The notes under the pieces: generated by a model
Database searches by the model: none
Seen by the model: only the letters and a program-made list of their open reading frames with translations
Told to the model about the DNA's origin: nothing
Translations under genes and position numbers: made by a program
Shown: one piece after another, positions 47,461-64,000 of the stretch
Layout of the letters: every line of letters begins with the position of its first letter
Numbering within the stretch: the first letter of the stretch is position 1
NCBI RefSeq assembly: GCF_002847345.1
Contig: NZ_LXFV01000015.1
Span: forward strand, 1 to 64,000
Length of the DNA: 64,000 bases
Origin: Pectobacterium peruviense
GTDB lineage: Bacteria > Pseudomonadota > Gammaproteobacteria > Enterobacterales > Enterobacteriaceae
Direction: 5' to 3'

Positions 47461-47471
47461 AAACCTAATAA

Positions 47472-48023: not shown

Positions 48024-48118
48024 CCCTTACCTTTATAAAATCAGAACTTCCTGATTATTTTACGCCGTTTTTTATTTGAGAATTCAAGCCGTATTTTCCT
48101 CACCTTAAACACTATTAA

Positions 48119-48245: not shown

Positions 48246-48256
48246 AACGAGGCAAC

Positions 48257-48643
48257 ATGGCAATTTCGCTCTATTACACCGCTCGACGCAAAAAATCCCT
48301 GAGCCAGAAAGAGATATCTGCCGTGAAGGAGATCGTCCAACGCCATTCCGTTAATGACCAAATTGAGAAATATCTGACGACGGGTACAGGCCTGAACTGG
48401 GAATCCTTTGATTTCGCCCTCAATGTGAAAATCGGTAACGTCTTCAGGAAGGGGATTGTGCTCTCCGGTTCAACTAAACTTCCCGACAACGAGGAAGAAG
48501 CAATCTGGGTTGGCGTACAACACTGGTGCCAGTGTTTATCCGAGATTCGCGGCGCCCTTACGCACTGTGAATGGCACGTCTCGGTTGACGATCGCGCGAT
48601 TCCGTGGAGCCATGAGGTCAATGCCTATGACCCTGCGCGGTAG
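48257..48643 (+). CDS. Hypothetical protein
   Basis: This 128-residue protein starts MAISLYYTARRKKSLSQKEI at 48257, just outside the ERIC; the frame opens earlier only through the repeat. It has alternating basic and aromatic segments (YTARRKKSLS, WCQCLSEIRGALTHCEWHV) and two closely placed cysteines, no signal peptide. No family is recognised. The next gene, 31 bases later, may be in the same transcript. Confidence 0.65.
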   Translation: MAISLYYTARRKKSLSQKEISAVKEIVQRHSVNDQIEKYLTTGTGLNWESFDFALNVKIGNVFRKGIVLSGSTKLPDNEEEAIWVGVQHWCQCLSEIRGALTHCEWHVSVDDRAIPWSHEVNAYDPAR

Positions 48644-48674
48644 AAACGTGAGCTTCTGAAAAACAGGGGGGAAG

Positions 48675-49037
48675 ATGAACGACAACGACATTTTTGATGC
48701 AGTCACGACCAGCGCATATGGGCTGTCGATGGGCGCCATATGGCAACATATTGCGGTGGAGTGTCGGGGCAACCCTAGAACGTATGCACAGCGTCAGACG
48801 CTGTTTTTCGATCTACTAGAGCACCTCATCATCGCAGGAAAAATCAGGCTTGCCAGCAAGGGAGAATATCTGCAGGGCGAAACAACGCATCAGGTCGATC
48901 AACTTCGCAACGCCTTTCCACCTGACGTCTCTGATGATGAATTTGATGATGTAGACGAATTTGGCCTGTGGTTCTTCGCCAAATCCCCCGCTGGCGTCGT
49001 GTGGATCACGCCCGAGGGGCAAGAGATTTGGACGTAA
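48675..49037 (+). CDS. Hypothetical protein, possibly DUF596-like
   Basis: This 120-residue acidic protein has FDAVTTSAYGLSMGAIWQHI, QRQTLFFDLLEHLIIAGKI and a very acidic SDDEFDDVDEFGLWFF, ending ITPEGQEIWT. The overall pattern recalls DUF596 proteins, a family of unknown function with members near toxin loci; this is from memory of the pattern only. The start follows GGGGGGAAG. No toxin gene is recognisable next to it. Confidence 0.6.
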   Translation: MNDNDIFDAVTTSAYGLSMGAIWQHIAVECRGNPRTYAQRQTLFFDLLEHLIIAGKIRLASKGEYLQGETTHQVDQLRNAFPPDVSDDEFDDVDEFGLWFFAKSPAGVVWITPEGQEIWT

Positions 49038-49101
49038 GAGGAATCCGCCGACGCCGATCCCTCTTACTCATGACCGAATATCACTAACACAAGCAGCAAA
49101 C

Positions 49102-50301
49102 TTACTCCGTGGTCTTACGCTCAACGCTCTGACCTTCCGCGGCCTGACCTTTCACTACCTGACCCTCTAGCACCTCACTCTCTTCCTGCTTTGCCATACT
49201 CGGGTGCTGACGCCCTTCTTCGATAAAATCTTCGCTGATACCTTCAATATTTTCCTGATTATCGCGCCCAGAGAGGATGTTCCAGCAGGCGATGAACAGC
49301 GCAGCAATCAGCGGACCAATCACAAAACCGTTAATACCGTAGATTTCCATACCGCCCAACGTGGCGATCAGAATCAGGTAATCCGGCATTTTGGTGTCTT
49401 TCCCCACCAGCAGCGGACGCAAAATGTTGTCCACCACCCCAATCACCAGCACAAAGAACGCGACAATGAAGATGGCTTGCCAGAGCATATCCGTCGCGAA
49501 CAGGAAGATAGCGGCAGGCACCCAGATAATCGCCGACCCCACGGCGGGGATCAGCGACAGGAACGCCATCAGCGAGCCCCACAGCAGGCTACCTTCTATC
49601 CCTGCGATGGAGAACGCAATACCGCCCAGTGTCCCCTGCACAATCGCCACAACCACAGTGCCTTTCACCGTCGCCCGCGATACCGCGGCAAACTTCACCA
49701 GCAGGTGATGTTTAACATGGGTGGAAAGCGGCAGCGATTCCAGAATCAGATTCACCAGATAGGAACCGTCCTTCAAAAGGAAGAAGAGCAGGTAAAGCAT
49801 CACCCCGAAACCAATAAAGAAGGTGAACGTTCCTTTGCCAATCAGGAGCACGCTTCCCGCCAGATATTGCCCGCCTTTCAGCGCTACCTGAGAAAGCTCT
49901 TGCTGTATTTTGGCGGCGTTATCAAGATTGTGTTCTGTCAGGAAATGCCGTGCCCACTTCGGCAGATGCTGAAGCAGCTCCGCCAGCACCACAGGGAATT
50001 GTGTATTGCTATCCTGCAATCGGGTGTAAACCCCGTTAATTTCAACCACCAGCGAGGAAACAATGATCCCCAATGGAATGAAAACAATCAGGAAGATGAT
50101 CAGGACGGTCAGCAGCGAGGCCAACCCGTTACGATCGTTTAATTTTTGCCGAATTTTGCTTTTCAGCGGATGGAAGATAATGGCCAACACTGCCGCCCAT
50201 AAAATGGCGGAATAATACGGCGCCAATATGTCAAAAAACGCCAGTGTGACGACAAACAAGATAAGGATGAAGAATCCCTTCGTAAGCCCTTTAATATTCA
50301 C
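49102..50301 (-). CDS. AI-2E-family membrane transporter (YdiK/PerM-like)
   Basis: This 399-residue inner-membrane protein has about seven or eight membrane segments. The start chosen is GTG 50301 (MNIKGLTKGFF...), with GGGGA 6 bases upstream; the frame extends 20 codons upstream. ILAPYYSAILWAAVLAIIFHPL, LIPAVGSAIIWVPAAIFLF and VVDNILRPLLVGKDTKMPD (the family's conserved Gly/Asn/Arg/Pro block) mark AI-2 exporter superfamily members. The C-terminal tail after EDFIEEGRQ is a Glu/Gln/Val repeat-like extension (EVLEGQVVKGQAAEGQSVE). Members include exporters and Na+/H+ antiporters, so the substrate is unknown. Confidence 0.88.
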   Translation of the reverse strand: MNIKGLTKGFFILILFVVTLAFFDILAPYYSAILWAAVLAIIFHPLKSKIRQKLNDRNGLASLLTVLIIFLIVFIPLGIIVSSLVVEINGVYTRLQDSNTQFPVVLAELLQHLPKWARHFLTEHNLDNAAKIQQELSQVALKGGQYLAGSVLLIGKGTFTFFIGFGVMLYLLFFLLKDGSYLVNLILESLPLSTHVKHHLLVKFAAVSRATVKGTVVVAIVQGTLGGIAFSIAGIEGSLLWGSLMAFLSLIPAVGSAIIWVPAAIFLFATDMLWQAIFIVAFFVLVIGVVDNILRPLLVGKDTKMPDYLILIATLGGMEIYGINGFVIGPLIAALFIACWNILSGRDNQENIEGISEDFIEEGRQHPSMAKQEESEVLEGQVVKGQAAEGQSVERKTTE

Positions 50302-50394
50302 AACGATTTCCCCTTCATTCAATCTGCTCTCGAAATATAGAACGAAGTGGGGCATTTGCAATACAGGAAAAAGCGTAGAGTGCCGAGGAAGGAA

Positions 50395-50884
50395 CTATGC
50401 GTTCACATCATGTGTGCCGATAAAGGCATTTTTTAGCTGACTATACACGGCAGAATCGTTATCACATGCCAGTGCGGCGGCGCGCTTTATTGCCGCGTAT
50501 TCCGCACACACGGAAGGATTAGCACGCAGATAATCACGAAAAGCCAGATGCCGCTGAATGTGCGCGTCACCGACTATAAAAGCGTGAAGATGGTGAGTAC
50601 GCTCATCGCCGCCCTTAGTGTAGTACCGACGCCCCGCCATCCCATTTTCGCCGCGTGGACGATAGCCCAAATCGACCATGACCTGATCCAGCCTGTCCAA
50701 ACCGGACAGCGAAACCACTTCCAGCAGCATATCAATCACCGGTTTAGCGGGTAGCCCCGGTACGGGCCGTACTGCCGATGTGATGCACTCTCACTACAAC
50801 CTCGCCTAGCGCCTTCGCTGCCGTTGCGTAATTCGTTGCCCAATGGGGATCGTAATCCACCACGGTTATGGTTCGTCCACCCAT
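50395..50884 (-). pseudogene. GrpB-family protein gene, frameshifted
   Basis: Two frames together give a GrpB (UPF0157) nucleotidyltransferase-like protein. From 50884 the first frame reads MGGRTITVVDYDPHWATNYATA... up to VHHIGSTA. The continuation VIDMLLEVVSLSGLDRLDQ... to the stop at 50395 is in the next frame. A single extra C/G in the run near 50764-50768 (plus strand GGGCC) breaks the expected HIGSTAVPGLPAKPVIDM junction and leads to an early stop. It is either a real pseudogene or a base-calling error. It lies between the AI-2E gene and lldD. Confidence 0.85.
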
Positions 50885-50996
50885 TCACTGATCCCCAATG
50901 CGTTTTTATCCCGTGCAGGTTATCAACGTTCAAGGGAAGGTTCAAAGGCCATTAGGAAACGCGGCGAGAGGATCACTCCCGCCGTCTAATTCGCGC

Positions 50997-52157
50997 TTAC
51001 AGGCCGTCCAATCGCCGCTGCGTAACCTGCACCAGCGAATCAGAGGTAATGTCAGTAATGGATTTGGCACCGGTGAGCGTCATCGCCACACGCATCTCTT
51101 TTTCGATCAGATTCAGCAGATTAACCACACCTGCCTCCCCCGCCGCCGCGAGCGCGTAGACAAACGCGCGTCCGAGCATTACGCCATCCGCGCCCAGTGC
51201 AATCATACGCACCACATCCAGCCCGGTACGAATACCAGAATCTGCCAGAATGGTGATATCACCTTTCACCGCATCGGCGATGGCAGGTAGAGCATGTGCT
51301 GTCGACAGCACACCATCCAGTTGGCGACCGCCGTGATTGGAGACGACGATGCCGTCTGCGCCGAACCTGACCGCTTCTTTGGCATCTTCCGGGTCGAGGA
51401 TACCTTTGATGATCATCGGCCCTTTCCAGAACTCGCGAATCCATGCCAAATCCTGCCAGGAAATGGAGGGATCGAAATTCGCTGCCAGCCAGCCGATGTA
51501 GTCTTCCAGCGTCGTGGGTTTGCCACGATAAGCGGAGACATTCCCCAAATCGTGCGGTTTACCGTTTAGGCCGACATCCCACGCCCATTGTAGATGAGTC
51601 ACGGCCTGTAACATACGGCGCGCCGCTGCATTCGGCCCGCTCATGCCAGAATGCGCATCACGATAGCGCGCACCCGGCGTCGGCATATCCACGGTAAACA
51701 CCAGCGTTTTCACACCCGCGGCCTGCGCACGCTCCAGCGCATTGCGCATAAAACCGCGATCTTTTAATACATAGAGCTGGAACCACATCGGGCGATCGAT
51801 GGCGGGTGCCACTTCCTCAATCGGGCAGACTGAAACCGTGGATAAGGTAAACGGAATCCCTTTCTGTGCCGCCGCACGAGCCGCCTGTACCTCGCCGCGT
51901 CTGGCGTACATACCGGTCAGGCCAACGGGAGCCAGCACCACCGGCATCGCCAGTTTTTCACCGAACAACTGCGTTTCCAGACTCAGGTCGGACATATTTT
52001 TCAGGATGCGCTGACGCAGCGCGATGTCCGCCAAATCGGCGGTATTACGCCTGAGCGTGTGCTCGCCATACGCACCGCCATCAATATAGTGAAAAAGAAA
52101 CGGCGGCAGCCTACGCTGCGCCGCCGCACGATAGTCCGTTGAAGCAGAGATGATCAT
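50997..52157 (-). CDS. lldD: FMN-dependent L-lactate dehydrogenase
   Basis: LldD oxidises L-lactate to pyruvate, passing electrons to the membrane quinone pool. The start [28 protein letters not shown] (first part [16 protein letters not shown]), [19 protein letters not shown], and the FMN-active-site block [12 protein letters not shown] with the catalytic His are family features. [16 protein letters not shown] binds the FMN phosphate. At 386 aa it matches E. coli. It is 73 bases after aldA on the same strand, separated by a strong hairpin, a natural pair: lactaldehyde to lactate to pyruvate. Confidence 0.95.
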
Positions 52158-52190
52158 CGTCCTTTCCCATCCTTCTTCTGGTTTGTGCCA

Positions 52191-52220
52191 CTCTTGCGGT
52201 CAGTGGAATGACCGCAAGAG
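52191..52220 (-). other. Strong stem-loop between aldA and lldD
   Basis: CTCTTGCGGTCA-GTGGAA-TGACCGCAAGAG is a perfect 12-base stem in the 73-base gap. There is no U-tract on the minus strand, so it may be an mRNA stabiliser or partial terminator that lowers lldD output relative to aldA. Confidence 0.7.
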
Positions 52221-52230
52221 GAATGGTCTT

Positions 52231-53670
52231 TTAGTGAAACTGTAAATACGCGACGTGCGTTTGCAGGTATTCCTGCAAGCCGTGCTTACCGTCCGCACCA
52301 CCCACACCGGATTTACGCCAACCCGCATGGAAACCCTGCATCGCCTCGAAGTTCTCACGGTTGATGTAGGTTTCCCCGAACTTCAGCCCTTTTAGTGCTT
52401 TCATCGCGGTGTTGATGTTTTGAGTATAGATCGACGACGTCAGGCCATATTCGCTATCGTTCGCCATCGCAATCGCGTCTTCCAGCGTGTCGAAGGTCGC
52501 CACTGGCAGCACCGGGCCAAACACCTCTTCGTGCATGATTGGCATCTCTTGCATCACGTTTACCAGCAGCGTCGGCGGATAGAAATACCCCGTACCGCCT
52601 TCAGACTTGCCGCCGAGCAGCACTTTCGCGCCCTGCGATACCGCTTTCGCTACCTTGTCTTCCACACGCTGTAGCGCAGCCGCACTGATCAACGGCCCCA
52701 TATCCAGCGCTTTTTTCTCCGCCGTATTGCCGAAGGTCACTTGCTCCATCGCAGTTTTAATACGCGTGATAAAGTCGTCGTAAATGCCTTTCTGCACGTA
52801 AACGCGCTCGGCGCAGTTACACACCTGCCCACTGTTGATAACGCGAGAACTGACAATCGCTTTAACGGCCAGATCGAGATCGGCGTCGTCCATCACGATG
52901 GCTGGCGCTTTACCACCCAGTTCCAGCGACACTTTGGTCACGTTCTGCGCCGCCGCCGTCATAGTGGCAATCCCCGCAGCCACGCTGCCGGTCAGGCTGA
53001 CCATGCCTACTTTCGGGTTACCGGCCAGCTCTTGCCCTACCGTCGGGCCGTAGCCGGTAACAAAATTGATGACGCCTTTCGGCAGGCCAATTTTGTGAAT
53101 GATTTCGGCGAAAATCACCGCATTATTCGGCGTGATCTCGCTCGGTTTGATGACGATGGTATTGCCGGTAATCAGCGCGGGAGCGGCTTTGCGTGCAATC
53201 AGGAAGAAGGGGAAGTTCCACGGCAGAATACCGGTCGTGACGCCAATCGCTTTACGGAAGACGAAGATATTCTCATTCGGTCGGTCGCTCTGAATGATTT
53301 CGCCTTCGTAACGACGCGCCCACTCGGCCATGTAGTCCAGATAGTCGGCGGTGAACAGCACTTCTGTCTGCGCCAGACCGTAGGTTTTACCGCCTTCCGC
53401 AATGATGGTGTCGGTCAGTTCGGCTTCGCGCTCGCGAATACCAGCAGCTATCTTGTGTAGCCAAACGCCACGTTCAACCGCAGGTAGCGCTTCCCAGCTC
53501 GGCTGTGCGGCTTCTGCCGCATCAATTGCTCTTTTTGCATCGTCAGCGGAGCCTTCTGGGATCTGTGAAATGACCTGCTCGGTAGCCGGGTTCACCACGT
53601 CAATCCACTTCCCGCTTCTGTTTTCAACAAACTCACCGTTGATATACATACGTTTCTGGGTGGTGCTCAT
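52231..53670 (-). CDS. aldA: Lactaldehyde/glycolaldehyde dehydrogenase
   Basis: AldA oxidises L-lactaldehyde, the product of fucose and rhamnose breakdown, to lactate with NAD+. The family blocks GVTTGILPWNFPFFLIARK, VSLELGGKAPAIVMDDADLDLAV, the catalytic NSGQVCNCAERVY (two Cys), and the end GGADGKHGLQEYLQTHVAYLQ are nearly as in E. coli. Start at 53670 (MSTTQKRMYINGE) gives 479 aa and has TTGGAGA upstream; the open frame continues 34 codons further without conserved sequence. It is transcribed towards lldD. Confidence 0.95.
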   Translation of the reverse strand: MSTTQKRMYINGEFVENRSGKWIDVVNPATEQVISQIPEGSADDAKRAIDAAEAAQPSWEALPAVERGVWLHKIAAGIREREAELTDTIIAEGGKTYGLAQTEVLFTADYLDYMAEWARRYEGEIIQSDRPNENIFVFRKAIGVTTGILPWNFPFFLIARKAAPALITGNTIVIKPSEITPNNAVIFAEIIHKIGLPKGVINFVTGYGPTVGQELAGNPKVGMVSLTGSVAAGIATMTAAAQNVTKVSLELGGKAPAIVMDDADLDLAVKAIVSSRVINSGQVCNCAERVYVQKGIYDDFITRIKTAMEQVTFGNTAEKKALDMGPLISAAALQRVEDKVAKAVSQGAKVLLGGKSEGGTGYFYPPTLLVNVMQEMPIMHEEVFGPVLPVATFDTLEDAIAMANDSEYGLTSSIYTQNINTAMKALKGLKFGETYINRENFEAMQGFHAGWRKSGVGGADGKHGLQEYLQTHVAYLQFH

Positions 53671-53959
53671 GTCAGGCGTCTCCAAAGTAGGGTAAGGGGA
53701 TACAACGCATAAACGAGTTGTTAAAAAAACACGTCTCTTTTGTGAAGTTTTGCCATGCTGCGCGATCTGCACTGCATTTACCTTTTCATGGCTGCCATCT
53801 CAGTCTAGCAAGTGGCAAAAAAGTCATGATGAGAATGCCTGACGTAACACTTTTGCAAAGTATCGGATAACACAGAGGAATAACGGCAGTGCGGGGATAA
53901 ACGAGGCGGTAGCAGACGCCGTATTCAGCTACGGCATCTGTCTGTAAAGCAGGGAAATA

Positions 53960-54889
53960 CTACTGTTCGTCGATTTTCACTATCTCTTCTTTCACTTTCC
54001 ACTTGCCGCCCACCAGCTCGCGGGTTGTGGCGACCATTGCCTGTTTCTCTTCAGAATAGGCTTCCGTGGTTTCGACAATCAGGACCGGCTTATTATTGGC
54101 CATCTGGTAGGTGGACCACTGGTGCCAGCAGCAGCCGCTTTTGGTAAACGTCGTGAGAGTCTTACTTTTCTCATCGATATCGAACAGACCGAGGTTGGAA
54201 CTGGCTAACTCGGTCAGCGGTGCATTCTGGGTGAACTGCTGCTTTTCCACATCAAACAGATACACATCGTAAGACGGCCCGCCATAAGCCCCGTTATTGC
54301 CATTGCGCAGCATGATGTCCGCGTGGTGATCGAAGTTAGCGTCATCAATCACCAGCCCGCTGTTGTTCTCGCCGTAGACCTCGACCAGATTCGCCGTCAC
54401 TTCGCCCTTATTGTTCAGTTCAATGAACAGGTTTTCCATGGTGATACGCTGGAACAGATCACCACTCCCTTTCTTAAAAATATCCAGCGTGCCGGGGCCT
54501 TCGCAGGTTGAATAAGAGGAATCAAGATTGCACGTTGCGACGCTGAGAATAAAGTCCCACTGGCCTGATGCCTGCGTAATCACGGAGATATTTTCACTAC
54601 CGGACAGCGCCTGAATACGGGAAACCATCTCATTCCCTAGACAAACGTCATCCTTACAGCGGTCACGTTCGGCCAGCCACGTGCGCTGCTCCTGACGCGC
54701 CTGCGCTTTGTCTGCTTTTTTCACGTAACCCTGATAGGCCTTGTTCAATACCGCATCGAGCTGCTGTAAGCGGCTGCTGGCGCAAATCATTTTCTCGGTG
54801 TCTGTGCTGGCCTTGCTGCAATCCATCGCCCAGACGGACGAGGTGAAAAAGAACAGCAGAGATGAAACGGCCAGAGATAAATAACGCAT
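53960..54889 (-). CDS. LprI-like periplasmic protein with C-terminal XAC2610-type domain
   Basis: A Sec signal peptide (about residues 1-21, ending SSVWA) precedes a lysozyme-inhibitor LprI/DUF1311-like domain: MDCSKASTDTEKMICAS, AYQGYVKKADKAQARQEQRTWLAERDRC and CLGNEM, with four cysteines for two disulphides. The C-terminal half (about 110-309) has FDHHADIMLRNGNNGAYGGPSYDVYLFD, resembling XAC2610-type beta-rich domains. At 309 aa it is longer than plain LprI-like proteins. It lies between the lipid operon and aldA; a 66-base gap separates it from the last desaturase. Function not established. Confidence 0.8.
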   Translation of the reverse strand: MRYLSLAVSSLLFFFTSSVWAMDCSKASTDTEKMICASSRLQQLDAVLNKAYQGYVKKADKAQARQEQRTWLAERDRCKDDVCLGNEMVSRIQALSGSENISVITQASGQWDFILSVATCNLDSSYSTCEGPGTLDIFKKGSGDLFQRITMENLFIELNNKGEVTANLVEVYGENNSGLVIDDANFDHHADIMLRNGNNGAYGGPSYDVYLFDVEKQQFTQNAPLTELASSNLGLFDIDEKSKTLTTFTKSGCCWHQWSTYQMANNKPVLIVETTEAYSEEKQAMVATTRELVGGKWKVKEEIVKIDEQ

Positions 54890-54955
54890 GAAGTATCGCT
54901 CCTTGAATACAGATAAAAATATAACATATTGATAAAAATGGATAACTGGCTATTT

Positions 54956-56050
54956 TTAGCGTCCTGTTCCCATTTTTTTAAGAAAGCGCTGCTGCTCAAC
55001 CAAAATATCTTTCAGCGTAATGCACTGATACTCAATGCCATGACGCGGGGCAACGTCCGCAATAATTTTCGATAGCGCGGGATAGTGCCGGTGATTCCAG
55101 TTGGGGAAAAGATGGTGAGTCAGGTGCATATTGAGCTGCCCCAACCAGTAACCCAGCCATTCGGGCTGGGTAGTCCAATCTACCGTGGTGGAAAAGACGT
55201 GCTGGTAGCGACCATGCTTGAATAGGCCGTCTTCCGGTGCCTGATAGAACGTCCCTTTTGCCCAGTGTGACCCCAGAATCAGGACGACAAAAATCAGCGA
55301 CGACAACATCTGGCTCAGCAGATAAACCAACAACAGCGAACCGACGCTGATGGGGGTCGGAGACAAAATCCAGTAGGGAATAACCAGCGCCAGCAGGGCA
55401 TGCAGCACTTTGGATAACAGGAAAACACCCCAGCCCTTTGCACCCTGAAGCGTCATATTGCGCGTCACCTGTGTTTTCCCCGCGCGATCGAGCCAGTCAA
55501 AAAACCAGATGATGCAAGGGAAGGTCAGCGACGCCACCATTGGCCAGTAGTAGCGCTGAGCGCGCATAAAAAAGCGAAATCGATGGTAGGGTGATTGGCG
55601 CAAGACGCCGTTCTCTTCGATATCCAGATCGTAGTGCTGCACATTCACGTGCGCATGATGAAAAATTACATGCCGCACTCGCCAACAGTCGGAATCCATA
55701 CCGAGCGGAATACTCACCACAATATTGAGCAGACGATTCGCCCACGGCCGCCGGAAAAAGACGTTATGGGACGCATCATGCACCACGTTCACCGCCAGAA
55801 ACATGGCGGTAAAAATAAAGGCAAAGTAGCAGCCAGCAAAACCCAACAGCGTCGTTTGCTGGAGGCTGAAACCATAAAATGTCAGGCACAGCGCCACCAG
55901 AAACAGCATCTTGCCGATAAACCCCGCATTGGCAAAACGGTGATCGCCCGTCTCTGCCAGATACGCATTCGCCGCCTTCATCAACGCACGATGCAACGCC
56001 AGATCGCGACCTTGTTCATAACGTAGAGGTTTCAACGGTGCGAGCATCAT
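54956..56050 (-). CDS. Membrane fatty acid desaturase (second copy)
   Basis: This membrane di-iron fatty acid desaturase has the three histidine boxes: HDASHNVFF, HVIFHHAHVNVQHYD and HLTHHLFPNWNHRHYP. Four or more hydrophobic segments lie between them. At 364 aa it is similar to acyl-lipid desaturases with a YQCITLKDILVEQ ending. It is the last gene of the eight-gene minus-strand lipid operon and is a diverged paralogue of the preceding gene, which it overlaps by 4 bases. Its substrate is presumably the operon product. Confidence 0.9.
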   Translation of the reverse strand: MMLAPLKPLRYEQGRDLALHRALMKAANAYLAETGDHRFANAGFIGKMLFLVALCLTFYGFSLQQTTLLGFAGCYFAFIFTAMFLAVNVVHDASHNVFFRRPWANRLLNIVVSIPLGMDSDCWRVRHVIFHHAHVNVQHYDLDIEENGVLRQSPYHRFRFFMRAQRYYWPMVASLTFPCIIWFFDWLDRAGKTQVTRNMTLQGAKGWGVFLLSKVLHALLALVIPYWILSPTPISVGSLLLVYLLSQMLSSLIFVVLILGSHWAKGTFYQAPEDGLFKHGRYQHVFSTTVDWTTQPEWLGYWLGQLNMHLTHHLFPNWNHRHYPALSKIIADVAPRHGIEYQCITLKDILVEQQRFLKKMGTGR

Positions 56051-57186
56051 TCTTCCTCTGATCGGGATTGCTCGGTACGTTGCGCAGTACGCCGATCGTA
56101 ACCTTCACCCATCGATTTTAGAAACCGACGCTGGCTATCCAGCAGTTCACGATAGGTAATGCAGCGGTAATTCATACCATGCTCGGCGGCAATGCGCCGT
56201 AAAATGCCGGCTAGTGCAGGGTAATGGCGATGATGCCATCCTGGGAAAAGATGATGCGTCAGATGTAAATTCAGTCCTCCCGTCCAGTGCCCAAGCCAGC
56301 GCGGCGTCGGTAGCCAGTCACAGGCGGTCGCAAAGTTATGCTGATACCAGCCTTGAGGCATGGCCTCTGCATCCGCAACGGCATAAAACTCAGCCTCAGC
56401 CCAGTGCGTACCCAGCAGTAAAAACACCACCAATAGCGATGCCAACATTTGCCCGAACACGTAGCTTAACAGCACGATACCGGGGCTAATGCCGTGTGCG
56501 CCTCCCACCAAGATGGGAATAACCAGTACCAGCAAGATATGGCCGATTTTACTGCCGATAAAAATCAACCACCCACCTCGGCCTGATTGTGCTACGCGAG
56601 CGTTCACGGGCGTTTTACCCAAGCGATCGGCCCAATCAAAGATCCAGGCGATATAGGGGAGCGAGAACGCGGCCACCAGCGGCCAGTAAAGATGCTGATA
56701 ACGCATGTAAGAGCGGTGGCGCTGAAAAGGCGTTTGTCGGAAAACACCATTCTCTTCCGTATCCAGATCGTAATGCTCCACATTCGGATAAAGATGGTGG
56801 AAGTCCACATGACGCCAACGCCAATAGTCAGGATCGATGCCTAATGGCAGCGTCACTATTCGCCCGACCACGCGGTTCAATGTTCGATTGCGGAAAAAAG
56901 TATTATGGGAGGCGTCATGATTAACGATGATATTCAATAACATCGACAACATGATGAAAGAAAAATAGCTCAGGAAGAATGCCCATGCTGCCTGCTGCAC
57001 TAAGCAAAGCACATAACAGGTAATGCAGCCTAAAAAGAGTAATCCGGCCTTAACGAACTGGCCGGTATCGGCAAAGCGATGATCATGGTTCGCGCGGAGA
57101 TAAGCCGACGTTTCCCGCTGTAGTGCTCGATGAAAAGCTTGTTCACCTTTCGCCGGATACCGCTTCTCAGGAAGCAAACTAGCCAT
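56047..57186 (-). CDS. Membrane fatty acid desaturase (first copy)
   Basis: This is the paralogue of the following gene, with HDASHNTFF, HVDFHHLYPNVEHYD and HLTHHLFPGWHHRHYP histidine boxes. ATG 57186 (MASLLPEKRYPAKGEQAFH) has AAGGA 7 bases upstream and overlaps the hydroxylase stop by 8 bases. Both copies share the RYPAKGEQ/RYEQGRDLALHRAL N-terminus and MNYRCITYRELLDSQRRFL-like end, so they come from one duplication. Likely a step in making an unsaturated lipid. Which double bond each makes is unknown. Confidence 0.9.
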   Translation of the reverse strand: MASLLPEKRYPAKGEQAFHRALQRETSAYLRANHDHRFADTGQFVKAGLLFLGCITCYVLCLVQQAAWAFFLSYFSFIMLSMLLNIIVNHDASHNTFFRNRTLNRVVGRIVTLPLGIDPDYWRWRHVDFHHLYPNVEHYDLDTEENGVFRQTPFQRHRSYMRYQHLYWPLVAAFSLPYIAWIFDWADRLGKTPVNARVAQSGRGGWLIFIGSKIGHILLVLVIPILVGGAHGISPGIVLLSYVFGQMLASLLVVFLLLGTHWAEAEFYAVADAEAMPQGWYQHNFATACDWLPTPRWLGHWTGGLNLHLTHHLFPGWHHRHYPALAGILRRIAAEHGMNYRCITYRELLDSQRRFLKSMGEGYDRRTAQRTEQSRSEEE

Positions 57187-58303
57187 TTTCATATCCTTCA
57201 GCAATCGGGCGCTGACCCCAGCCGACCGCCATCGCCAGCCCGTGCAGCGCCATCATCAGCATAGCTATTTTCCAGTAGAGCGCTTCCCAGCCCAGATAGA
57301 CAAGAAACACGGCAGGAAACAACAGTACCACCAACAGCCAGACGTAAATGCCCCACCGTCGCCCTTCAGAAATACCACCCAGCGCGACCGCACCCGCCAC
57401 CAGCAACAGGAAGAGCGCCGCCTGCGACAGGTTGGCGGAGTCATAGCCGTAGCCATACAGGTAGACATAGCCCACCACCAGCGCAAATAGCAGCATCGCC
57501 CCAGCGATTAACGCCATCGGCGTACAGTGAAACGTCGCCTGACGTGTACGGCGTACCGACAGTTTCAGATACGACAGAAAAGGTAGGTTACTGGCCAAGA
57601 ACGGGTTTTTCGATGGTGCTTCTTTGCCTGCGCCGTAGCGGAAAGGCGTGTCGGGCAGCTGCGGACAAAAGCTGCCAAACAGCTTGTCCCAAAAAATGAA
57701 AGTGCCGCCGAAGTTCTTATCGGCGTAGGCACGGTCGTTCACGTGATGTACGCGATGGTGTGCGGGCGTCACCAGCACCTTTTCAAGCCAGCCCAGTTTG
57801 GGCGTCATCGCATTATGGTTAAAGAGTTGGACGCTGTAATGCAGGATGGAAACGGTGACGAACACGTACAGCGGAACGCCGAGCAGCGCCAGAATCAGGA
57901 AAAACGGAATCGAGGTCAGCGAGGAATACCAGGAATTACGCACGCCCAGCGACAGATTGAAATGCTCGCCCTGATGATGAACCACATGCACCGCCCACAG
58001 TACGCCAAAAGTATGGTGCAGGCGGTGTAGCCAATAAAAACCGAAATCCCAGGCGAGTAGCGCGAACAGCCACATCAGCACCGGCGGCCAGGTTTCCACC
58101 CAGCCAAAACTGAAATGCGCCGCGACATAGCCATAGCAAAAAATTTCCACGCTGCGAAAGAGCCACAGCATGATATGCCCTGAATTCAGGTTGAACACGA
58201 CGTCATGCCAGTTCACCTTCTCTCGCTGCATCCACTGTAGAACCAGCGCTTCGCCAATCACCACAACCAGCATGAAGACTATCGGTAATGCTAAATCAAT
58301 CAT
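57179..58303 (-). CDS. Sterol desaturase / fatty acid hydroxylase family protein
   Basis: This membrane di-iron oxygenase of the ERG3/SUR2 family has the histidine motifs HRLHHTFGVLWAVHVVHHQGE and LVTPAHHRVHHVND (in part) between several membrane segments. An extra C-terminal hydrophobic domain (about 265-365) adds four predicted helices. At 374 aa it is longer than typical single-domain members. In bacteria such proteins hydroxylate or desaturate lipids. It overlaps the first desaturase and lies 4 bases after PAP2, in the same operon. Exact reaction unknown. Confidence 0.88.
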   Translation of the reverse strand: MIDLALPIVFMLVVVIGEALVLQWMQREKVNWHDVVFNLNSGHIMLWLFRSVEIFCYGYVAAHFSFGWVETWPPVLMWLFALLAWDFGFYWLHRLHHTFGVLWAVHVVHHQGEHFNLSLGVRNSWYSSLTSIPFFLILALLGVPLYVFVTVSILHYSVQLFNHNAMTPKLGWLEKVLVTPAHHRVHHVNDRAYADKNFGGTFIFWDKLFGSFCPQLPDTPFRYGAGKEAPSKNPFLASNLPFLSYLKLSVRRTRQATFHCTPMALIAGAMLLFALVVGYVYLYGYGYDSANLSQAALFLLLVAGAVALGGISEGRRWGIYVWLLVVLLFPAVFLVYLGWEALYWKIAMLMMALHGLAMAVGWGQRPIAEGYENG

Positions 58304-58307
58304 GAAT

Positions 58308-58961
58308 TCATTCCTGATGGCGCTTATCGTTGGGCAGCGTCGATGGGGAAATAGCCTTCACCGTCTCTCGGCTACGTAGAAAGACCCATCCGACGATTCC
58401 CGCCAGCATCGCCCCGGTCACCAGATCGATGAACAGGTGTCGGCGCAGTTGCAGGATGGAAAAGGCAATCGCCGCACCCCATAGAAGATACAAGCCAGTT
58501 TTCACTTTCTGCTGACTATCGCTCATCGCCCACACCGCCAGAACCGTTAGCGCAATGTGCAGCGACGGCAGGCAGTTTTGCGGCGAATCGATACGCTGCA
58601 AAAGCTGTAGCAGACGGACGGAGAAATCGTCCCCGACGACTTGCGGATACACCATCGTCGTCGGAAAAGTTAGGTACACTGCGCCCGCAATCAACGCAGT
58701 AAGCTGCGTTGCCCGACGTAATCCAGCCAAACGCGTAATCGGGCAGGATAAGTAAGACAGCGGAATGATGATGAAAAAGGAAAGATACAGCCAGATAGCC
58801 GAGGCGCTAAAGGGAACCGATTCATCAACCATCGAAGGCGGTAACACGGTTCCCTGCCCCTGAAACTGCGCGCTCAGTTGATACACTACCCCGACCGATC
58901 CCCAGCCGAAGAGCAGCGCTTTCAGCCGTAGTAATAGCATCGTTCCTTGAGGAAATCGCAT
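58308..58961 (-). CDS. PAP2-family membrane phosphatase
   Basis: This membrane protein has about five or six hydrophobic segments. PAP2 motifs are recognisable in reduced form: NCLPSLHIALTVLAVW (C2 with Ser-His) and RRHLFIDLVTGAMLAG (C3 with Arg/His/Asp). The C1 KxxxxxxRP motif is not clear. ATG 58961 has GGAGG 7 bases upstream and overlaps the ligase stop by one base; the open frame extends farther without support. It may dephosphorylate a lipid phosphate in the operon pathway, or it may be a transferase of the same fold. Confidence 0.82.
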   Translation of the reverse strand: MRFPQGTMLLLRLKALLFGWGSVGVVYQLSAQFQGQGTVLPPSMVDESVPFSASAIWLYLSFFIIIPLSYLSCPITRLAGLRRATQLTALIAGAVYLTFPTTMVYPQVVGDDFSVRLLQLLQRIDSPQNCLPSLHIALTVLAVWAMSDSQQKVKTGLYLLWGAAIAFSILQLRRHLFIDLVTGAMLAGIVGWVFLRSRETVKAISPSTLPNDKRHQE

Positions 58962-60247
58962 CATGCTTCCTCCTTCAGGCGGGTAATGCGTCTGCGCTTT
59001 TGCGTGAATTCTGGTGCGATCTCTCCAGCGGTTAACTGCCACCGTAGTTGCGGCGTATCAATCCCCTGTAACGCAAACTGCTGCGCCAGACTATCCCGGC
59101 AAGCTTCCAGTTCCGACAGACTACACGCAGCGGATAAATGCAGCGTCACTTCTCCCTGCTGTACCAGCCGGTAGTCGGCATGCAACGGCAGCGCATTGGC
59201 GATCACCCGGCTACAGAGATCCGCAAACACGGTTTGCGGTTCACCGCGGTTGTTCGGCAGCCGCAAGCTGTCATCGCTGCGCCCTTCGATACGGGCTATC
59301 GCCATCGTCACTCGGCCACACGCGCAGGGCGCTTTTTGCTTCACCAACACATCATCCAGCCGATAGCGCACAATCGGCTGCGTACTGCGGGTAAAATCGG
59401 TAATGACGGGCGTAAAGCGTTCGTCATCCAGCCACTGTGGTTCGATGTGAATAAATTCTTCGTTGAGGTGTAACGTGCCGTGCTCGCAGGTCGATGCCAA
59501 AAAGCCTTCCGTCGCCTGATACACTTCTCCAACCTGCCCAAAGACCTGCTGCAACAGCTGCTTATCCTGTGGCTCCAGCACCTCAGCCACGGAAATCACC
59601 TTTTTGACCGACAGGCGCAATTCACCGCGCTGTACAGCCAGCGCCAGCTCGCGCAGCACCTGTGCAGGGGCGACAATAATCGACGGCGACCACGTTTCCA
59701 GACGCGAAAAATGTTCGGCAAATGGCGCGAAGAGATCGTAAAACGATAGACTCAGCCAGCGATTATCGACGCTGTGATAGAGGTTGTTATCTGCCCGCAG
59801 AAATAGCGCCACACGTTCACCGGCGCGTAAACCGTCAGGCAGCATTTTCGCCAGCATGCCTCCGGCCCAAATCTGCTGTTCGCGTGGGCTGACGACAAAC
59901 AGACCGCGCTGACCGGAAGTGCCGGACGACAGCCCGACGCTGAACCCGTTTACATTCGGCGTAAAGTCACGATCGTCCTCGCTACGACGCGCGCAGGCAA
60001 GAAGCTCGTCCCGCTTCAGTCCGGCGGTATTCATCCGATTGAATTCAGCCATCATCACGGCTTTATCCATCATCGGCCAGGATGTAATGGGTAGCTGGCA
60101 ATAAGGACGAAAATAAGGACTACGCGCCAGCACTCGACGTGCAAAACGAGAAAGCTGACGCTGCTGATGGCGTTCAAGCGCCTGACGGGTACGAAAATTC
60201 AGGCGTCTGGCACGCAAATAGTGCCAGATCGTCATCAGCGGAATCAT
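58961..60247 (-). CDS. PaaK-like adenylate-forming enzyme (F390 synthetase-related)
   Basis: This 428-residue protein belongs to the adenylate-forming enzymes near PaaK and coenzyme F390 synthetase. The ATP-binding loop is LSSGTSGQRGLFVVS, the second ATP motif YQATEGFLA, and IVRYRLDDVLV the third. CACGR suggests a zinc-like Cys pair. The N-terminus is basic (RARRLNFRTRQALERHQQR). ATG 60247 overlaps the MBL gene stop (ATGA) and has GAGGG upstream. It presumably activates an acid as acyl-AMP, for CoA ester, ester or lactone formation in the operon product. Substrate unknown. Confidence 0.88.
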   Translation of the reverse strand: MIPLMTIWHYLRARRLNFRTRQALERHQQRQLSRFARRVLARSPYFRPYCQLPITSWPMMDKAVMMAEFNRMNTAGLKRDELLACARRSEDDRDFTPNVNGFSVGLSSGTSGQRGLFVVSPREQQIWAGGMLAKMLPDGLRAGERVALFLRADNNLYHSVDNRWLSLSFYDLFAPFAEHFSRLETWSPSIIVAPAQVLRELALAVQRGELRLSVKKVISVAEVLEPQDKQLLQQVFGQVGEVYQATEGFLASTCEHGTLHLNEEFIHIEPQWLDDERFTPVITDFTRSTQPIVRYRLDDVLVKQKAPCACGRVTMAIARIEGRSDDSLRLPNNRGEPQTVFADLCSRVIANALPLHADYRLVQQGEVTLHLSAACSLSELEACRDSLAQQFALQGIDTPQLRWQLTAGEIAPEFTQKRRRITRLKEEA

Positions 60248-61050
60248 AGGTCGCCCTCGTGACACAGCCGAATCTCAACTTGCCCGTTCAGATGCAACTG
60301 ATGCAGTTGATCCAGCGTGTGGTAATAGGCTTTTGGATCGTCCATCACCAGATTCGCCAAGCGCGACGGCCCGCGGCCTTCGCGATAGCTGTGCGGCGAC
60401 CAGGCCGCATCGCTTGCCAACAGCACCCAGCCGTTTTCGGTCAGCACAAACGCACCGAGGTGCCCGACTGCATGGCCGGGCAACGGCACCAGCACGATCT
60501 CTTTGTCACTCCCCGGCAGCACATAACCTTGCGTAAACGGCGCAAGCGCCGCAGGCAGGTCGGTAAGCGGGAAGTTTTCGACAAACTGGAGTGACTGCTC
60601 AAAATGTTCAGGAATCAGCGCAGGCACAAACGCTCGCTTCAAGGCCGCGAAACCACGCAGATTCCGCGTCTGCTGCCAGCCTAGCGCCGAACAGATAAAC
60701 GGCACAGTGGGGAAATCCCGCAGCCCTGCGATATGGTCGCCGTGAAAATGGGAAATAATCAGGCCGTCGATGTCGGCAGGTTGAATGCCCTGCGCGTTTA
60801 GTTGATGAATCAACGCGTCTTTGGTCTCGAAATGCACCGGCGTCATTCTACGGTACAGTTGAAACAGGCCGGAACGCGTCGCGTCGGTAAAATGCTGCGC
60901 ATAACCGGTGTCCCACAGCCAGCGCTTGCCCTGACTTTCCAGCATCCAGACCCGCGCCGGAAAACGGCACACCTTCCATCCCGCACCGCGCAACGCCATG
61001 CAGCCCGGATGCAGGCAGTACCCTACTTCAAACGTCGAAATATTAGCCAT
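60244..61050 (-). CDS. MBL-fold metallohydrolase
   Basis: This metallo-beta-lactamase-fold hydrolase has the zinc motif ISHFHGDHIAGL (H-x-H-x-D-H), PLPGHAVGHLG (third-zinc His) and LLASDAAW (bridging Asp). The layout and GWVLLASDAAWSPH pattern resemble lactonase-like and esterase-like MBL proteins. ATG 61050 (MANISTFEVGY) overlaps the SDR stop by 8 bases; an upstream in-frame ATG at 61074 is less likely. CLHPGCMALRGAG near the N-terminus holds two cysteines. In the operon it could hydrolyse a thioester, ester or lactone intermediate. Confidence 0.88.
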   Translation of the reverse strand: MANISTFEVGYCLHPGCMALRGAGWKVCRFPARVWMLESQGKRWLWDTGYAQHFTDATRSGLFQLYRRMTPVHFETKDALIHQLNAQGIQPADIDGLIISHFHGDHIAGLRDFPTVPFICSALGWQQTRNLRGFAALKRAFVPALIPEHFEQSLQFVENFPLTDLPAALAPFTQGYVLPGSDKEIVLVPLPGHAVGHLGAFVLTENGWVLLASDAAWSPHSYREGRGPSRLANLVMDDPKAYYHTLDQLHQLHLNGQVEIRLCHEGDL

Positions 61051-62071
61051 GTCCGTTAGCACTCCGCTGTGCAAGGTGGGTATTGAACCAGTTACCGGTT
61101 AATTCGATGCCCTGCTGGAGGGAGAAACGCGGCTGATAGCCCAGCTCTTGCTGCGCTTTTTCCGCGCTGAGCGTCATATCGAAATTCACCGTTCCCGCAC
61201 TGTAGCGTGTCAACAGCGGCTCTTTCCGGCTAAACCGCGATAACAGCTCCATTCCACCCGCCACCGCATGCAACAGCGGATACGGCACCGCTTTGACGCG
61301 ATAATGCATCCCCAGTTGCCCGACCAGAAGTTGCGCAAGCATATCGGCAAGGTGTGCGGGTTCATGATTGGTGATGTTGTACGTCGAGCCAGAAACTAAC
61401 CCCGCTCGCTGGCTGGCAAGCGCCATCGCTTCCACCACGTTGCCGACAAACGTCAGATCCAGCAGCGCCTCGCCGCCGCGCGGGAGCCGTAGCACACCGC
61501 CGCCCACCGCGATCTGCTCCAAAATGCGCGGCAGAATCACGCGGTCATGCGGACCAAACAGGCCACGCGGACGCAGGATCACATAGGTGGTTTGCGGATA
61601 GCGCGACGTCAGTGCATGAAGCCGTTCTTCCGCCAGAAATTTGGTCTGCGCGTAGTGATTGGCAAAGCGCGCTGCGTGGTAGCTTTCATCAATATTCAGG
61701 TGGTGCTGATAATCGAAGTAAATCGCAGGCGTGGAGATATGGACAAAACGTGGGATACCCAACTGTCCGGCAGCCTCAGCCAGTCGCGCCGTCACATCGG
61801 TATTATTCTGATAGAAGTCATCATATTGACCCCACGGCGATGATTTCGCCGCACAGTGCCAGACGACATCGCAGCCTGTCATCAGCGTTCGATACTGCTC
61901 TACCAACGTTTCGACCAAATCAATGCAGATAAACTGCGCACCCAGCATGTCAAGCTGTTGCCCCACCGTGCGATCGCGCCCGCAGGCCAGCACCTGATGT
62001 CCAGCCTGAATCAGCCATTCCACCGCGTTACGCCCCAGCCCGCTGGTTGCGCCAGTGACGAAGACCTTCAT
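61043..62071 (-). CDS. NAD-dependent epimerase/dehydratase family (3-beta-HSD/OleD-like reductase)
   Basis: This extended SDR has the nucleotide motif VTGATSGLGRNAVEWL and the catalytic YAQTKFLAEE (Tyr-x3-Lys). CDVVWHCAAKSSPWG and ILRPRGLFGPHDRVILPRIL resemble the OleD/3-beta-hydroxysteroid dehydrogenase group. Its C-terminus has LTRYSAGTVNFDMTLSAEKA. At 342 aa it is normal. It overlaps the ketosynthase gene by 4 bases (ATGA), and OleD-like reductases reduce beta-keto products of OleA-like enzymes. The substrate is inferred. Confidence 0.87.
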   Translation of the reverse strand: MKVFVTGATSGLGRNAVEWLIQAGHQVLACGRDRTVGQQLDMLGAQFICIDLVETLVEQYRTLMTGCDVVWHCAAKSSPWGQYDDFYQNNTDVTARLAEAAGQLGIPRFVHISTPAIYFDYQHHLNIDESYHAARFANHYAQTKFLAEERLHALTSRYPQTTYVILRPRGLFGPHDRVILPRILEQIAVGGGVLRLPRGGEALLDLTFVGNVVEAMALASQRAGLVSGSTYNITNHEPAHLADMLAQLLVGQLGMHYRVKAVPYPLLHAVAGGMELLSRFSRKEPLLTRYSAGTVNFDMTLSAEKAQQELGYQPRFSLQQGIELTGNWFNTHLAQRSANGHG

Positions 62072-63081
62072 GGAATCAGTACCATCCCGCCCAGCGTCAA
62101 CCCGGCAGCCGTACCGACCAACATCGCGGGTTCACCTTCAGGCAGGCGTTGCGTCACGATGGCATGGTGCAGCGCCGTCGGAATCGAGGCTGCGACCTGA
62201 TTACCGTGATAGCGGTAAATATCAATCAATCTGTCTGTCGGAATCGCCAGCCGCTTACGCATATGCTCCAGCGACAGGTGGCTGGCCTGATGCGGAACCA
62301 CCGCCGCCATCTGCTCTAGCGTGAAGCCACTTGCATCCAGCAGCCGTTGCAGATAGCCCTCAATCAAAGCAGAAGCCTGCCTGAATAGCCGTTTTCCCTG
62401 CATATGGAATAGAAAATCATGCAGTTCCATCCCCGCTCGCGGGTTACGCAACGTACCGCCTGCGCGGATCTGACACAGCTCATTGCCCTTCGGGTAGGTT
62501 TCCAGCAGACACGCAGCAATCCCGCTGCGACCGTCACCACGTTCGACAATGGCACAGGCGGCCCCATCGCCAAAAATCAGCGACGATTCTTCGTCATCCC
62601 AGTCAATGCCGCGTGAGGCCAGTTCGGTAGAGACAATGGCAATGCGCCGATAGGCGCCGGTATTTAACAACCCTGCGGCCACCTGAAGGGCGGAAATAAA
62701 GCTGACGCAGCTGCTGTTAATATCAAAACAGGCCGTCCCTTTTGGCAGGGACGATGCCTTTAATAAATGACTGGCGCTATAAGGCAGCGCCTGAATCGGA
62801 ATCGCGGAAGCAAATAGCAGCAGATCGATTGACGCTGGTGGAATAACGCCTCGCGCCAGCGCGTCATTTAACGCCGCCACACCGAGTTCAGCCTGGCTGG
62901 CATGATTATCAGCATGGTGGCGATAGATAATTCCCGAACGGCTTTCGACATAGCCAGCAGGCTTATTTAATCGCACATCTAATTCAGCCGACGTCACCCG
63001 CTGCGCAGGAAGTGCGCTGCCAGTGGAAATAATCTTGAGAGGAACCAATCCCTTAGTAAATGCATGACTTTGCGTCTTCAA
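62068..63081 (-). CDS. FabH-like ketoacyl synthase III (OleA-like)
   Basis: This beta-ketoacyl-ACP synthase III-fold protein has an intact catalytic triad, numbered from the upstream TTG at 63087: Cys127 in DINSSCVSFISAL, His266 in VVPHQASHL and Asn296 in RYHGNQVAAS. LIFGDGAACAIVE is a conserved core strand. No ATG occurs near the N-terminus; TTG 63081 with AGGA 6 bases upstream is the best start (TTG 63087 is the other). At 337 aa it is longer than housekeeping FabH (about 317). It is the first gene of the eight-gene operon, so it probably starts the pathway by condensing acyl units. An OleA-type head-to-head reaction or simple malonyl extension cannot be told apart. Confidence 0.88.
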   Translation of the reverse strand: MKTQSHAFTKGLVPLKIISTGSALPAQRVTSAELDVRLNKPAGYVESRSGIIYRHHADNHASQAELGVAALNDALARGVIPPASIDLLLFASAIPIQALPYSASHLLKASSLPKGTACFDINSSCVSFISALQVAAGLLNTGAYRRIAIVSTELASRGIDWDDEESSLIFGDGAACAIVERGDGRSGIAACLLETYPKGNELCQIRAGGTLRNPRAGMELHDFLFHMQGKRLFRQASALIEGYLQRLLDASGFTLEQMAAVVPHQASHLSLEHMRKRLAIPTDRLIDIYRYHGNQVAASIPTALHHAIVTQRLPEGEPAMLVGTAAGLTLGGMVLIP

Positions 63082-63131
63082 TATCAATCCTTTTCAGATT
63101 CATTATCGTTTTACCCGTACCTACAGTGCCA

Positions 63132-63258
63132 TATACCCTAAATAATTCGAGTTGCGTGAAGGCGGCAACCACGTGAATCCCCAGGAGCTTACACAAGTAA
63201 GTGACTGGGGTGAGTAAGGGCGGCCAACGCACAAGCAGCTCGAAGTATGACGGGTATC
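63132..63258. repeat. ERIC element copy F (standard length)
   Basis: ERIC of about 127 bases with left end TATACCCTAAATAATTCGAG, core GAATCCCCAGGAGCTTAC...GTAAGTGACTGGGGTGAG and right end CGAAGTATGACGGGTATC. It lies between the start of the lipid operon and the glpM-like gene, and is close to copy E in sequence. It could influence the divergent promoters. Confidence 0.95.
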
Positions 63259-63407
63259 ACGTACAGTATTTATTCATTCTGCTGCTAAGAATAACGAAAT
63301 TGCCACGAATTGAAATCTCAAGCTGTGCGGTCACACTATTCTATACGGGTACTTTTTCGCTATTCTCTGTGCATTCACGATGCTTAATTAAGCCAGAACT
63401 TATACTT

Positions 63408-63749
63408 ATGTCATTGTTTATCAAATCTGTTATCGGCGCACTGATCGTATTGCTCATCAGCGTATTGGCGAAAAGCCGAAATTATTATATTGCTGGGCTG
63501 GTGCCGCTATTTCCCACGTTCGCTCTGATCGCGCATTACATCGTGGGCACCGAGCGCGGGCTGGACGCACTACGTACCACCATCCTATTTGGCATCTGGT
63601 CCGTTATTCCCTATCTGGTTTATCTCATCTCACTTTATTACTTTACCGCGTGGATGAAATTGCCACAGGCGTTGCTCGCGGCGGTCGTGTGCTGGAGTGT
63701 GTCGGCAGCCTTGCTGGTCAAAATCTGGACGTGGTATCAGGGGAATTAG
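63408..63749 (+). CDS. glpM: GlpM-family small membrane protein
   Basis: This 113-residue inner-membrane protein has four predicted helices. MSLFIKSVIGALIVLLISVLAK, NYYIAGLVPLFPTFALIAHYIVG (split as shown) and IWSVIPYLVYLISLYYFTAW match E. coli GlpM closely. Its role is poorly understood; it has been linked to envelope stress and alginate in other bacteria. ATG 63408 is used; the open frame extends back into the ERIC as a false start. Confidence 0.92.
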   Translation: MSLFIKSVIGALIVLLISVLAKSRNYYIAGLVPLFPTFALIAHYIVGTERGLDALRTTILFGIWSVIPYLVYLISLYYFTAWMKLPQALLAAVVCWSVSAALLVKIWTWYQGN

Positions 63750-63778
63750 CGTCTGACTTCTTATCTTAGGATTGTGCA

Positions 63779-64000
63779 ATGACAAAAACGACATATCCCG
63801 GCACGGTTTCTCGCCCTGTGCTCTCTGCGCAGGAAGCGGATCGCTTCACGCTCCCACACTATTTCACGCTGCGTGGGCACGATAACCAGACTGAGGCTGA
63901 CGTCTGGCAACCCATGCCGATTGAGGTCGATCCAGCGACGCCTTGGGTTGTTGGGCCACAGGTCGGGGTCGATGGCGCAACACACGCCCATATCCAACAG
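63779..64000 (+). CDS. CE8 pectinesterase-like protein, N-terminal part only
   Basis: The window ends inside this gene; 74 codons are visible. The start MTKTTYPGTVSRPVLSAQEA and VVGPQVGVDGATHAHIQQ resemble the N-terminus of the pectinesterase/YbhC-type CE8 proteins (RPVLs.EA near the start, VGP....THTxIQ before the beta-helix). No signal peptide is visible in this part. Such enzymes demethylate pectin or oligogalacturonates in soft-rot bacteria. The call rests on a short stretch only. Confidence 0.55.
   Translation, partial: MTKTTYPGTVSRPVLSAQEADRFTLPHYFTLRGHDNQTEADVWQPMPIEVDPATPWVVGPQVGVDGATHAHIQQ

Follow-up and report, generated by a model that had tools for sequence, protein, structure and literature searches.

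What do eight tightly packed genes on one strand of a Pectobacterium contig make, and do they act as a single unit? The question is raised by a 64,000-nt stretch of DNA (positions 1–64000 of its contig in a 4.78 Mb Pectobacterium assembly; hereafter, the window), where eight open reading frames (ORFs), all on the minus strand, span positions 54956–63087. The original prediction described them as an overlapping operon for one unusual lipid or lipid-like metabolite, with acyl chains putatively condensed, reduced, activated and oxidised, a scheme derived from the enzyme families. The ORFs were found in this arrangement and their family matches were confirmed by profile searches. The idea of one eight-gene unit was rejected: the genes co-occur far beyond the genome of the window, but the conserved block comprises the first four genes only, coding for a ketosynthase (KS), a short-chain dehydrogenase (SDR), a metallo-beta-lactamase-fold hydrolase (MBL) and an adenylate-forming enzyme (ANL). 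The other four genes belong to exchangeable modules. All the families are known; their combination could plausibly, judging from sequence, represent a lipid or lipid-like pathway initiated by a KS III enzyme and equipped with exchangeable headgroup modules.

Relatives of the window genes were collected by a scan of named genomes, which retrieved at least 593 stretches, 589 of them confirmed; the best 80, which are nearest relatives and not independent, were used for counting. The KS, SDR, MBL and ANL genes are adjacent and in this order in 77 of these 80 loci. Of the three exceptions, two (L085 and L102) have no KS gene in the stretch covered and one (L109) starts at a contig end. The order is also kept in all 15 further genome stretches that were inspected, with three irregularities: a KS gene cut by the contig start (L160), an inserted ATP-grasp gene (L154) and an SDR present as two ORFs (L151). 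Among ten loci from a plasmid collection, five (L032, L033, L038, L039 and L041) keep all the core genes side by side, an ATP-grasp gene is inserted after KS in two (L034 and L040), the core is reordered with KS last in a Fusobacterium locus (L036), the core genes are scattered in L035, and ANL is found without the rest in L037. Two of the records labelled as plasmids look chromosomal: L032 (NZ_CP141085.1) contains narGHJI, galU, hns and tdk, and L036 (NZ_CP084075.1) is 2.1 Mb long. L035 (pBASL58, scattered core) and L037 (pMPPla107, ANL alone) are Pseudomonas megaplasmids with hypothetical genes around.

Pairwise distances of the four core proteins correlate with r of 0.91–0.96, as in co-inherited genes, a figure that is descriptive since the rows are related. 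Co-occurrence, which the original prediction proposed to look for, was encountered for the four core genes in Pseudomonadota and Bacillota and, in reordered form, in Fusobacterium (Fusobacteriota). Occurrence is patchy: the profile TIGR02304, which recognises ANL, exceeded its cut-off in 22 genomes of a 394-genome sample of the order; a sample of 398 genomes of the phylum gave 7, five of which the order sample already contained. Spread between lineages is likely, because the ANL tree places Pseudomonas rows in the midst of those from Serratia.

The first core gene, KS (62068–63087, minus strand, as are all genes below), encodes a FabH-like beta-ketoacyl synthase III (ACP_syn_III_C, 83.8 bits; ACP_syn_III, 72.2 bits). 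We considered whether it is a duplicate of the housekeeping FabH and rejected this: KS scores 191 bits against the FabH model TIGR00747, below the cut-off of 292.1, and the FabH of the same genome is encoded on another contig and scores 478. Every homologue with a letter at these positions keeps the catalytic triad Cys127-His266-Asn296 (all 88 such rows for Cys, all 89 for His and for Asn). The best matches among solved structures are 4v2p (annotated as "ketosynthase", 156 bits), which we take to be MxnB, and CorB (146 bits), with FabH 2ebd close behind (140 bits); PqsD (3h76) is a weaker match at 77 bits. Positions 99–102 of KS read Gln-Ala-(Leu/Ile)-Pro, where the FabH of the genome has His-Ala-Phe-Pro. 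At the position of the glutamate of OleA and PpyS, a column that was tentatively matched via FabH, the 88 rows that have a letter contain Leu (82 rows) or Ile (6 rows) and never Glu.

This glutamate matters for the enzymes that carry it. According to published work, OleA has Glu117-Pro at the gate position and the residue is essential to the Claisen step (PMC7064751), PpyS has E105 at the same position and its loss abolishes product formation (PMC4578411), and MxnB and CorB, both within the FabH clade, have Val94 there (PMC4578411). CorB and MxnB join two chains inside a T-shaped cavity (PMC4901931). KS as a head-to-head ketosynthase of the OleA/PpyS type was therefore rejected, the catalytic Glu being missing. 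The hydrophobic residue in its place (88 of 88 rows) is shared with CorB and MxnB, a feature that is general to FabH-like ketosynthases and not diagnostic.

The second gene, SDR (61043–62071), codes for an extended short-chain dehydrogenase (Epimerase, 108.6 bits; 3Beta_HSD) with conserved Ser113, Tyr140 and Lys144 in the alignment of homologues. Its nearest curated models are OleD-type 2-alkyl-3-oxoalkanoate reductases; the score of 165 bits against a cut-off of 580 led us to reject membership in OleD proper. The third, MBL (60244–61074, with a likely ATG at 61050; Lactamase_B, 52.3 bits), retains its metal ligands: His109, His111, Asp113 and His114 in 96 of 96 rows with a letter and His201, Asp222 and His272 in 95 of 95. 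In the list of curated-model matches it is closer to lactonases than to any model named as a thioesterase, although the nearest ones, 4-pyridoxolactonase (53.4 vs. 325 bits) and N-acyl homoserine lactone lactonase (47.6 vs. 360 bits), remain far below their cut-offs. The fourth, ANL (58961–60265, likely ATG at 60247), exceeds the TIGR02304 "F390 synthetase-related" cut-off (584.3 vs. 251.9 bits), and its P-loop, Thr-Glu-Gly motif, Asp305 and Lys423 are conserved among homologues. No OleC model was present among its NCBIfam matches. Individual core genes are damaged in places: KS is broken into two ORFs in Pseudomonas caricapapayae (L050), and five internal stops interrupt the ANL of one locus (L024). 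In a published screen, a "Coenzyme F390 synthetase" mutant of Pseudomonas syringae pv. actinidiae is listed among 91 reduced-virulence mutants of 3000 (PMC9823363), a phenotype hint if that gene belongs to the ANL family or to such a cluster. A search of the plasmid collection with the ANL gene of P. cerasi gave no near match, so the Pseudomonas phenotype is tied to no record.

In the window, the core is followed by four putative tailoring genes. PAP2 (58308–59042, likely ATG at 58964) encodes a PAP2_3 (PF14378) membrane protein (32.8 bits, gathering cut-off 27); PAP2_3 was found, at E up to 0.01, in all 51 homologues and PAP2_C in 3 of them. SDO (57179–58303) belongs to the fatty acid hydroxylase/sterol desaturase family (FA_hydroxylase, PF04116, 98.0 bits, cut-off 31) and is the sole PF04116 match in the genome. 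DESa (56047–57204, in-frame ATG at 57186; 114.1 bits) and DESb (54956–56050; 98.3 bits), the latter being the last gene of the operon, are membrane fatty acid desaturases (FA_desaturase, cut-off 29.7) and are, besides one weak broken match, the only members of the family over the cut-off in this genome.

Elsewhere, this set is replaced or reduced. Among the best 80 loci, PAP2 is near the core in 66, SDO in 59, a desaturase in 57 and a GT21 glycosyltransferase in 9; SDO always occurs together with PAP2, and a desaturase without SDO is seen in L107 only. In nine enterobacterial loci the core is accompanied by a further OleD-like SDR and by two glycosyltransferases, one of type GT21 and one MGT-like (GT1); the curated model nearest to GT21 is HpnI (96 vs. 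310 bits). In eight of these nine loci there is also a protein of about 190 residues without a Pfam match, ORF190 (e.g., L084, 13444–14010). In Fusobacterium (L036), too, GT21 stands beside the core together with a homologue of this conserved family (6217–6864, E 2.7e-19). Directly behind the core in L155 (5928–8103) are a DUF3419 gene (229.7 bits), presumably BtaA-like, and a Rieske oxygenase recognised by Pfam, possibly a version with a betaine-type headgroup; L160 resembles L155 in both genes by eye, outside the Pfam scan, and L151 has a Rieske oxygenase, too. ATP-grasp and/or GNAT genes are near the core in Bacillota and Paraburkholderia and in several loci from the class to which the window belongs, the label of L035 and L037 resting on genes some distance away. 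Two Rhodobacterales loci have a divergent sulfotransferase and TetR pair (Pfam-confirmed on one). In L118, an NRPS-like (nonribosomal peptide synthetase) protein with adenylation and carrier domains, whose first ca. 410 residues have no Pfam match, is encoded directly behind ANL (11302–14310), and L117 has the same by similarity. A quick ANL tree of 98 rows requires at least 18 changes of tailoring state and at least three of GT21, with several long branches and unsure deep placements.

We proceed from these observations to a modular operon for a modified lipid, in which the core supplies an activated beta-hydroxy acyl chain and the modules equip it with different headgroups, a reading to which we assign about an even chance. 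KS would form a beta-keto acyl product by condensing acyl thioesters, bound to coenzyme A (CoA) or to the housekeeping acyl carrier protein (ACP; no ACP gene is present within the operon); the step could be malonyl addition or the joining of two chains in the manner of CorB and MxnB. SDR would then reduce the 3-keto group to a hydroxyl, MBL would hydrolyse a thioester or lactone intermediate to the free acid, and ANL would adenylate this acid and hand it to CoA or another acceptor. On the hydroxylated lipid, the PAP2_3 protein may swap or remove a phospho-headgroup, SDO may hydroxylate, and DESa and DESb may add double bonds; an order of PAP2, SDO and desaturase is suggested by the nested occurrence of these genes around the core.

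The exchanged neighbours point in two directions. GT21, DUF3419, PAP2_3 and sulfotransferase genes indicate a hydroxyl on a lipid, and NRPS-like, GNAT and ATP-grasp genes suggest that an acyl chain is activated. Both groups would be satisfied by a beta-hydroxy acyl product. A lipid or lipid-like product is likeliest, because co-occurrence is wide, catalytic residues are kept and the exchanged neighbours include lipid and headgroup enzymes (GT21, DUF3419 and sulfotransferase). In this respect the original prediction holds, but in place of its one unusual lipid a family of products is likelier, since PAP2, the oxygenase and the desaturases are only one of several tailoring sets.

Several observations weigh against this modular lipid operon. 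The best 80 loci are nearest relatives and depend on each other. No searched tailoring gene accompanies the core in 11 of the 98 ANL-tree rows (Xenorhabdus, Snodgrassella and others), some of these "core" labels possibly coming from loci cut short, and given such bare rows tailoring is not essential to the core. The PAP2 profile matches LpxE (E 0.025) and AUR1 (E 0.04) weakly and nearly equally under a loose limit, neither being significant. A soluble acyl-amino-acid metabolite would also agree with the ATP-grasp, GNAT and NRPS-like neighbours. Finally, housekeeping synthesis already yields FabH-type 3-hydroxyacyl chains, and a dedicated KS and SDR therefore need an unusual substrate.

The reading that competes best with the modular lipid operon is that the locus makes a secreted fatty-acid-derived signal or antimicrobial (e.g., an acyl amino acid, a pyrone or an alkyl lactone) and not a membrane lipid, with KS, MBL and ANL in roles that resemble those of PqsD, PqsE and PqsA in quinolone signalling. 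We regard it as possible, with the probability against it. Like the operon for the Pseudomonas quinolone signal, the locus combines an ANL-superfamily ligase, a FabH-like KS and an MBL hydrolase, and it differs in having no PqsBC pair and in containing an SDR, lipid-type oxygenases and desaturases. KS resembles the pyrone-forming CorB and 4v2p, and PqsD more weakly; several lineages have ATP-grasp, GNAT and NRPS-like neighbours, and the patchy occurrence in the order is in the style of secondary metabolism. Against this, PAP2_3, the PF04116 oxygenase, the membrane desaturases, GT21 and DUF3419 are enzymes of a type associated with membrane lipids, and MBL is, in the list of curated-model matches, nearer to lactonases than to any thioesterase model. 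The alpha-pyrone antibiotic systems are related through KS: CorB and MxnB are its best matches among solved structures and likewise lack the glutamate (their Val94 standing against the Gln-Ala-x-Pro gate of KS). They differ in that the operon has no polyketide synthase module, contains a reductase, a hydrolase and a ligase after KS, and would not be expected to yield a pyrone once the 3-keto group is reduced.

The similarity of KS to CorB and MxnB raises a narrower version of the modular lipid operon. A two-tailed lipid is possible because KS lacks the OleA/PpyS glutamate and resembles these chain-joining enzymes. We consider it doubtful, as a specific proposal, that the core uses CorB/MxnB-like joining of two acyl chains to build a two-tailed beta-hydroxy lipid. 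Such a lipid would serve as a bacterial stand-in for ceramide or diacylglycerol without a serine palmitoyltransferase and would undergo, depending on the lineage, changes of headgroup and chains like those of sphingolipids or glycerolipids: exchange of a phospho-headgroup by PAP2_3, glycosylation by GT21, a betaine-type headgroup through DUF3419, and also sulfation, hydroxylation and desaturation. Desaturases, PF04116 hydroxylases, AUR1/SMS-type PAP2 proteins and GT21 enzymes all have roles in sphingolipid tailoring, and the same four superfamilies stand beside the core. These superfamilies are broad, the operon has no gene of the serine palmitoyltransferase type, and the nearest models are HpnI for GT21 and OlsE, the ornithine-lipid hydroxylase, for SDO. 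Even the latter likeness is distant, with 66.6 bits against a cut-off of 475 and no ornithine-lipid genes in the operon.

A second Ole-like route is unlikely. Here KS, SDR and ANL would stand for OleA, OleD and OleC and produce a beta-lactone, with MBL in place of OleB, followed by hydroxylation and desaturation. PMC7064751 describes the formation of beta-lactones by OleA, OleD and OleC, SDR is nearest to OleD-type reductases, and MBL is lactonase-like. As in the oleABCD and oleADC clusters, a relative of KS III, an SDR of the 3-beta-HSD type and an adenylate-forming enzyme are encoded together, probably with acyl thioester substrates. There are several differences: Glu is missing from the OleA position of KS in all 88 rows, SDR reaches 165 of 580 bits, the NCBIfam matches of ANL include no OleC model, MBL is not OleB and no oleB-like gene is present in the operon, and membrane tailoring enzymes are added. 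A catabolic or detoxifying operon for the uptake and breakdown of foreign lactones or unusual acids, which the lactonase-like MBL and the place of ANL in the wider phenylacetate-CoA-ligase-like group might suggest, is highly improbable, since the full Cys-His-Asn triad of KS and the glycosyltransferase, DUF3419 and NRPS-like neighbours are synthetic and no beta-oxidation annotation stood beside the core in the annotated records examined (no search was aimed at such genes).

The eight window genes are organised as a compact putative operon. With the ORF starts as listed, neighbouring genes overlap by 4, 32, 22 and 82 bases at the first four of the seven junctions from KS to DESb, stand 4 bases apart at the fifth, and overlap by 26 and 4 bases at the last two; with the internal ATGs at 61050, 60247, 58964 and 57186, picked by hand from the ORF translations, the junctions become overlaps of 4, 8, 4 and 4, a gap of 4, and overlaps of 8 and 4. 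All eight genes are under purifying selection, dN/dS being 0.024–0.219 relative to five other Pectobacterium loci (four for DESa, as L047 has no DESa). A scan of positions 53800–64000 for σ70-like promoters returned 4 sites vs. 7.9 expected, none of them directly upstream of KS. Among the matches listed, the nearest relatives of the window ANL gene are Pectobacterium loci with 89–93% identity, and an ANL gene free of stops is present in 23 of 25 Pectobacterium genomes, that of the window included. With the conserved core order and the low dN/dS, this makes the gene set more than a chance arrangement. The GC content of the operon (0.52–0.58 in 55000–62999) is similar to that of positions 49000–54999 (0.50–0.58), with lower values (0.35–0.49) in 44000–48999. 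A recent foreign island is not favoured by the GC content and by the presence of ANL in most Pectobacterium genomes. A same-strand gene 66 bases downstream of DESb (53960–54889), whose product contains an LprI domain and a stretch of the XAC2610 type, could be co-transcribed.

The core is also present in Escherichia coli. At ≥90% identity it was found in 672 of 5426 complete genomes (102 at ≥99% identity, 568 at 95–99% and 2 at 90–95%), 670 times on the chromosome, and the probiotic E. coli Nissle 1917 is among the carriers. This version was detected at the protein level, the window DNA itself having no near match in E. coli genomes. One listed sequence type 131 (ST131) record has an IS66-like element inside the matched region. 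In the Nissle 1917 and N96 chromosomes and in L032, a seven-gene version with one desaturase lies between narI and the tyrT/purU side. narI is directly upstream of the core also in seven Serratia loci, two more Escherichia, Citrobacter gillenii, Leclercia and one further genome; the loci with the core directly behind narGHJI are L032, L042, L043, L049, L051, L054, L057, L058, L061, L063, L069, L070, L073, L077 and L161. Oddly for a pathway with oxygen-dependent oxygenases, its neighbour in E. coli and Serratia is thus an operon for nitrate respiration.

We found no description of the KS-SDR-MBL-ANL set in the open-licence PubMed Central literature searched, in line with the earlier statement that no recognised pathway has exactly the eight-gene set. 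The operon is more general than first noted, and its lipid reading, grounded in sequence comparison, is plausible. A putative four-gene pathway is widespread, reaching three phyla and 672 of 5426 complete E. coli genomes, and the recurrence of the core with changing lipid-tailoring genes in unrelated bacteria points to a common bacterial lipid pathway. If the core is lipid-making, there is an unassigned lipid class in well-studied bacteria, and its product could be solved by comparing the tailoring variants that nature provides. Were the two-tailed proposal true, a lipid class spanning at least three phyla and roughly one in eight complete E. coli genomes would have gone unrecognised.

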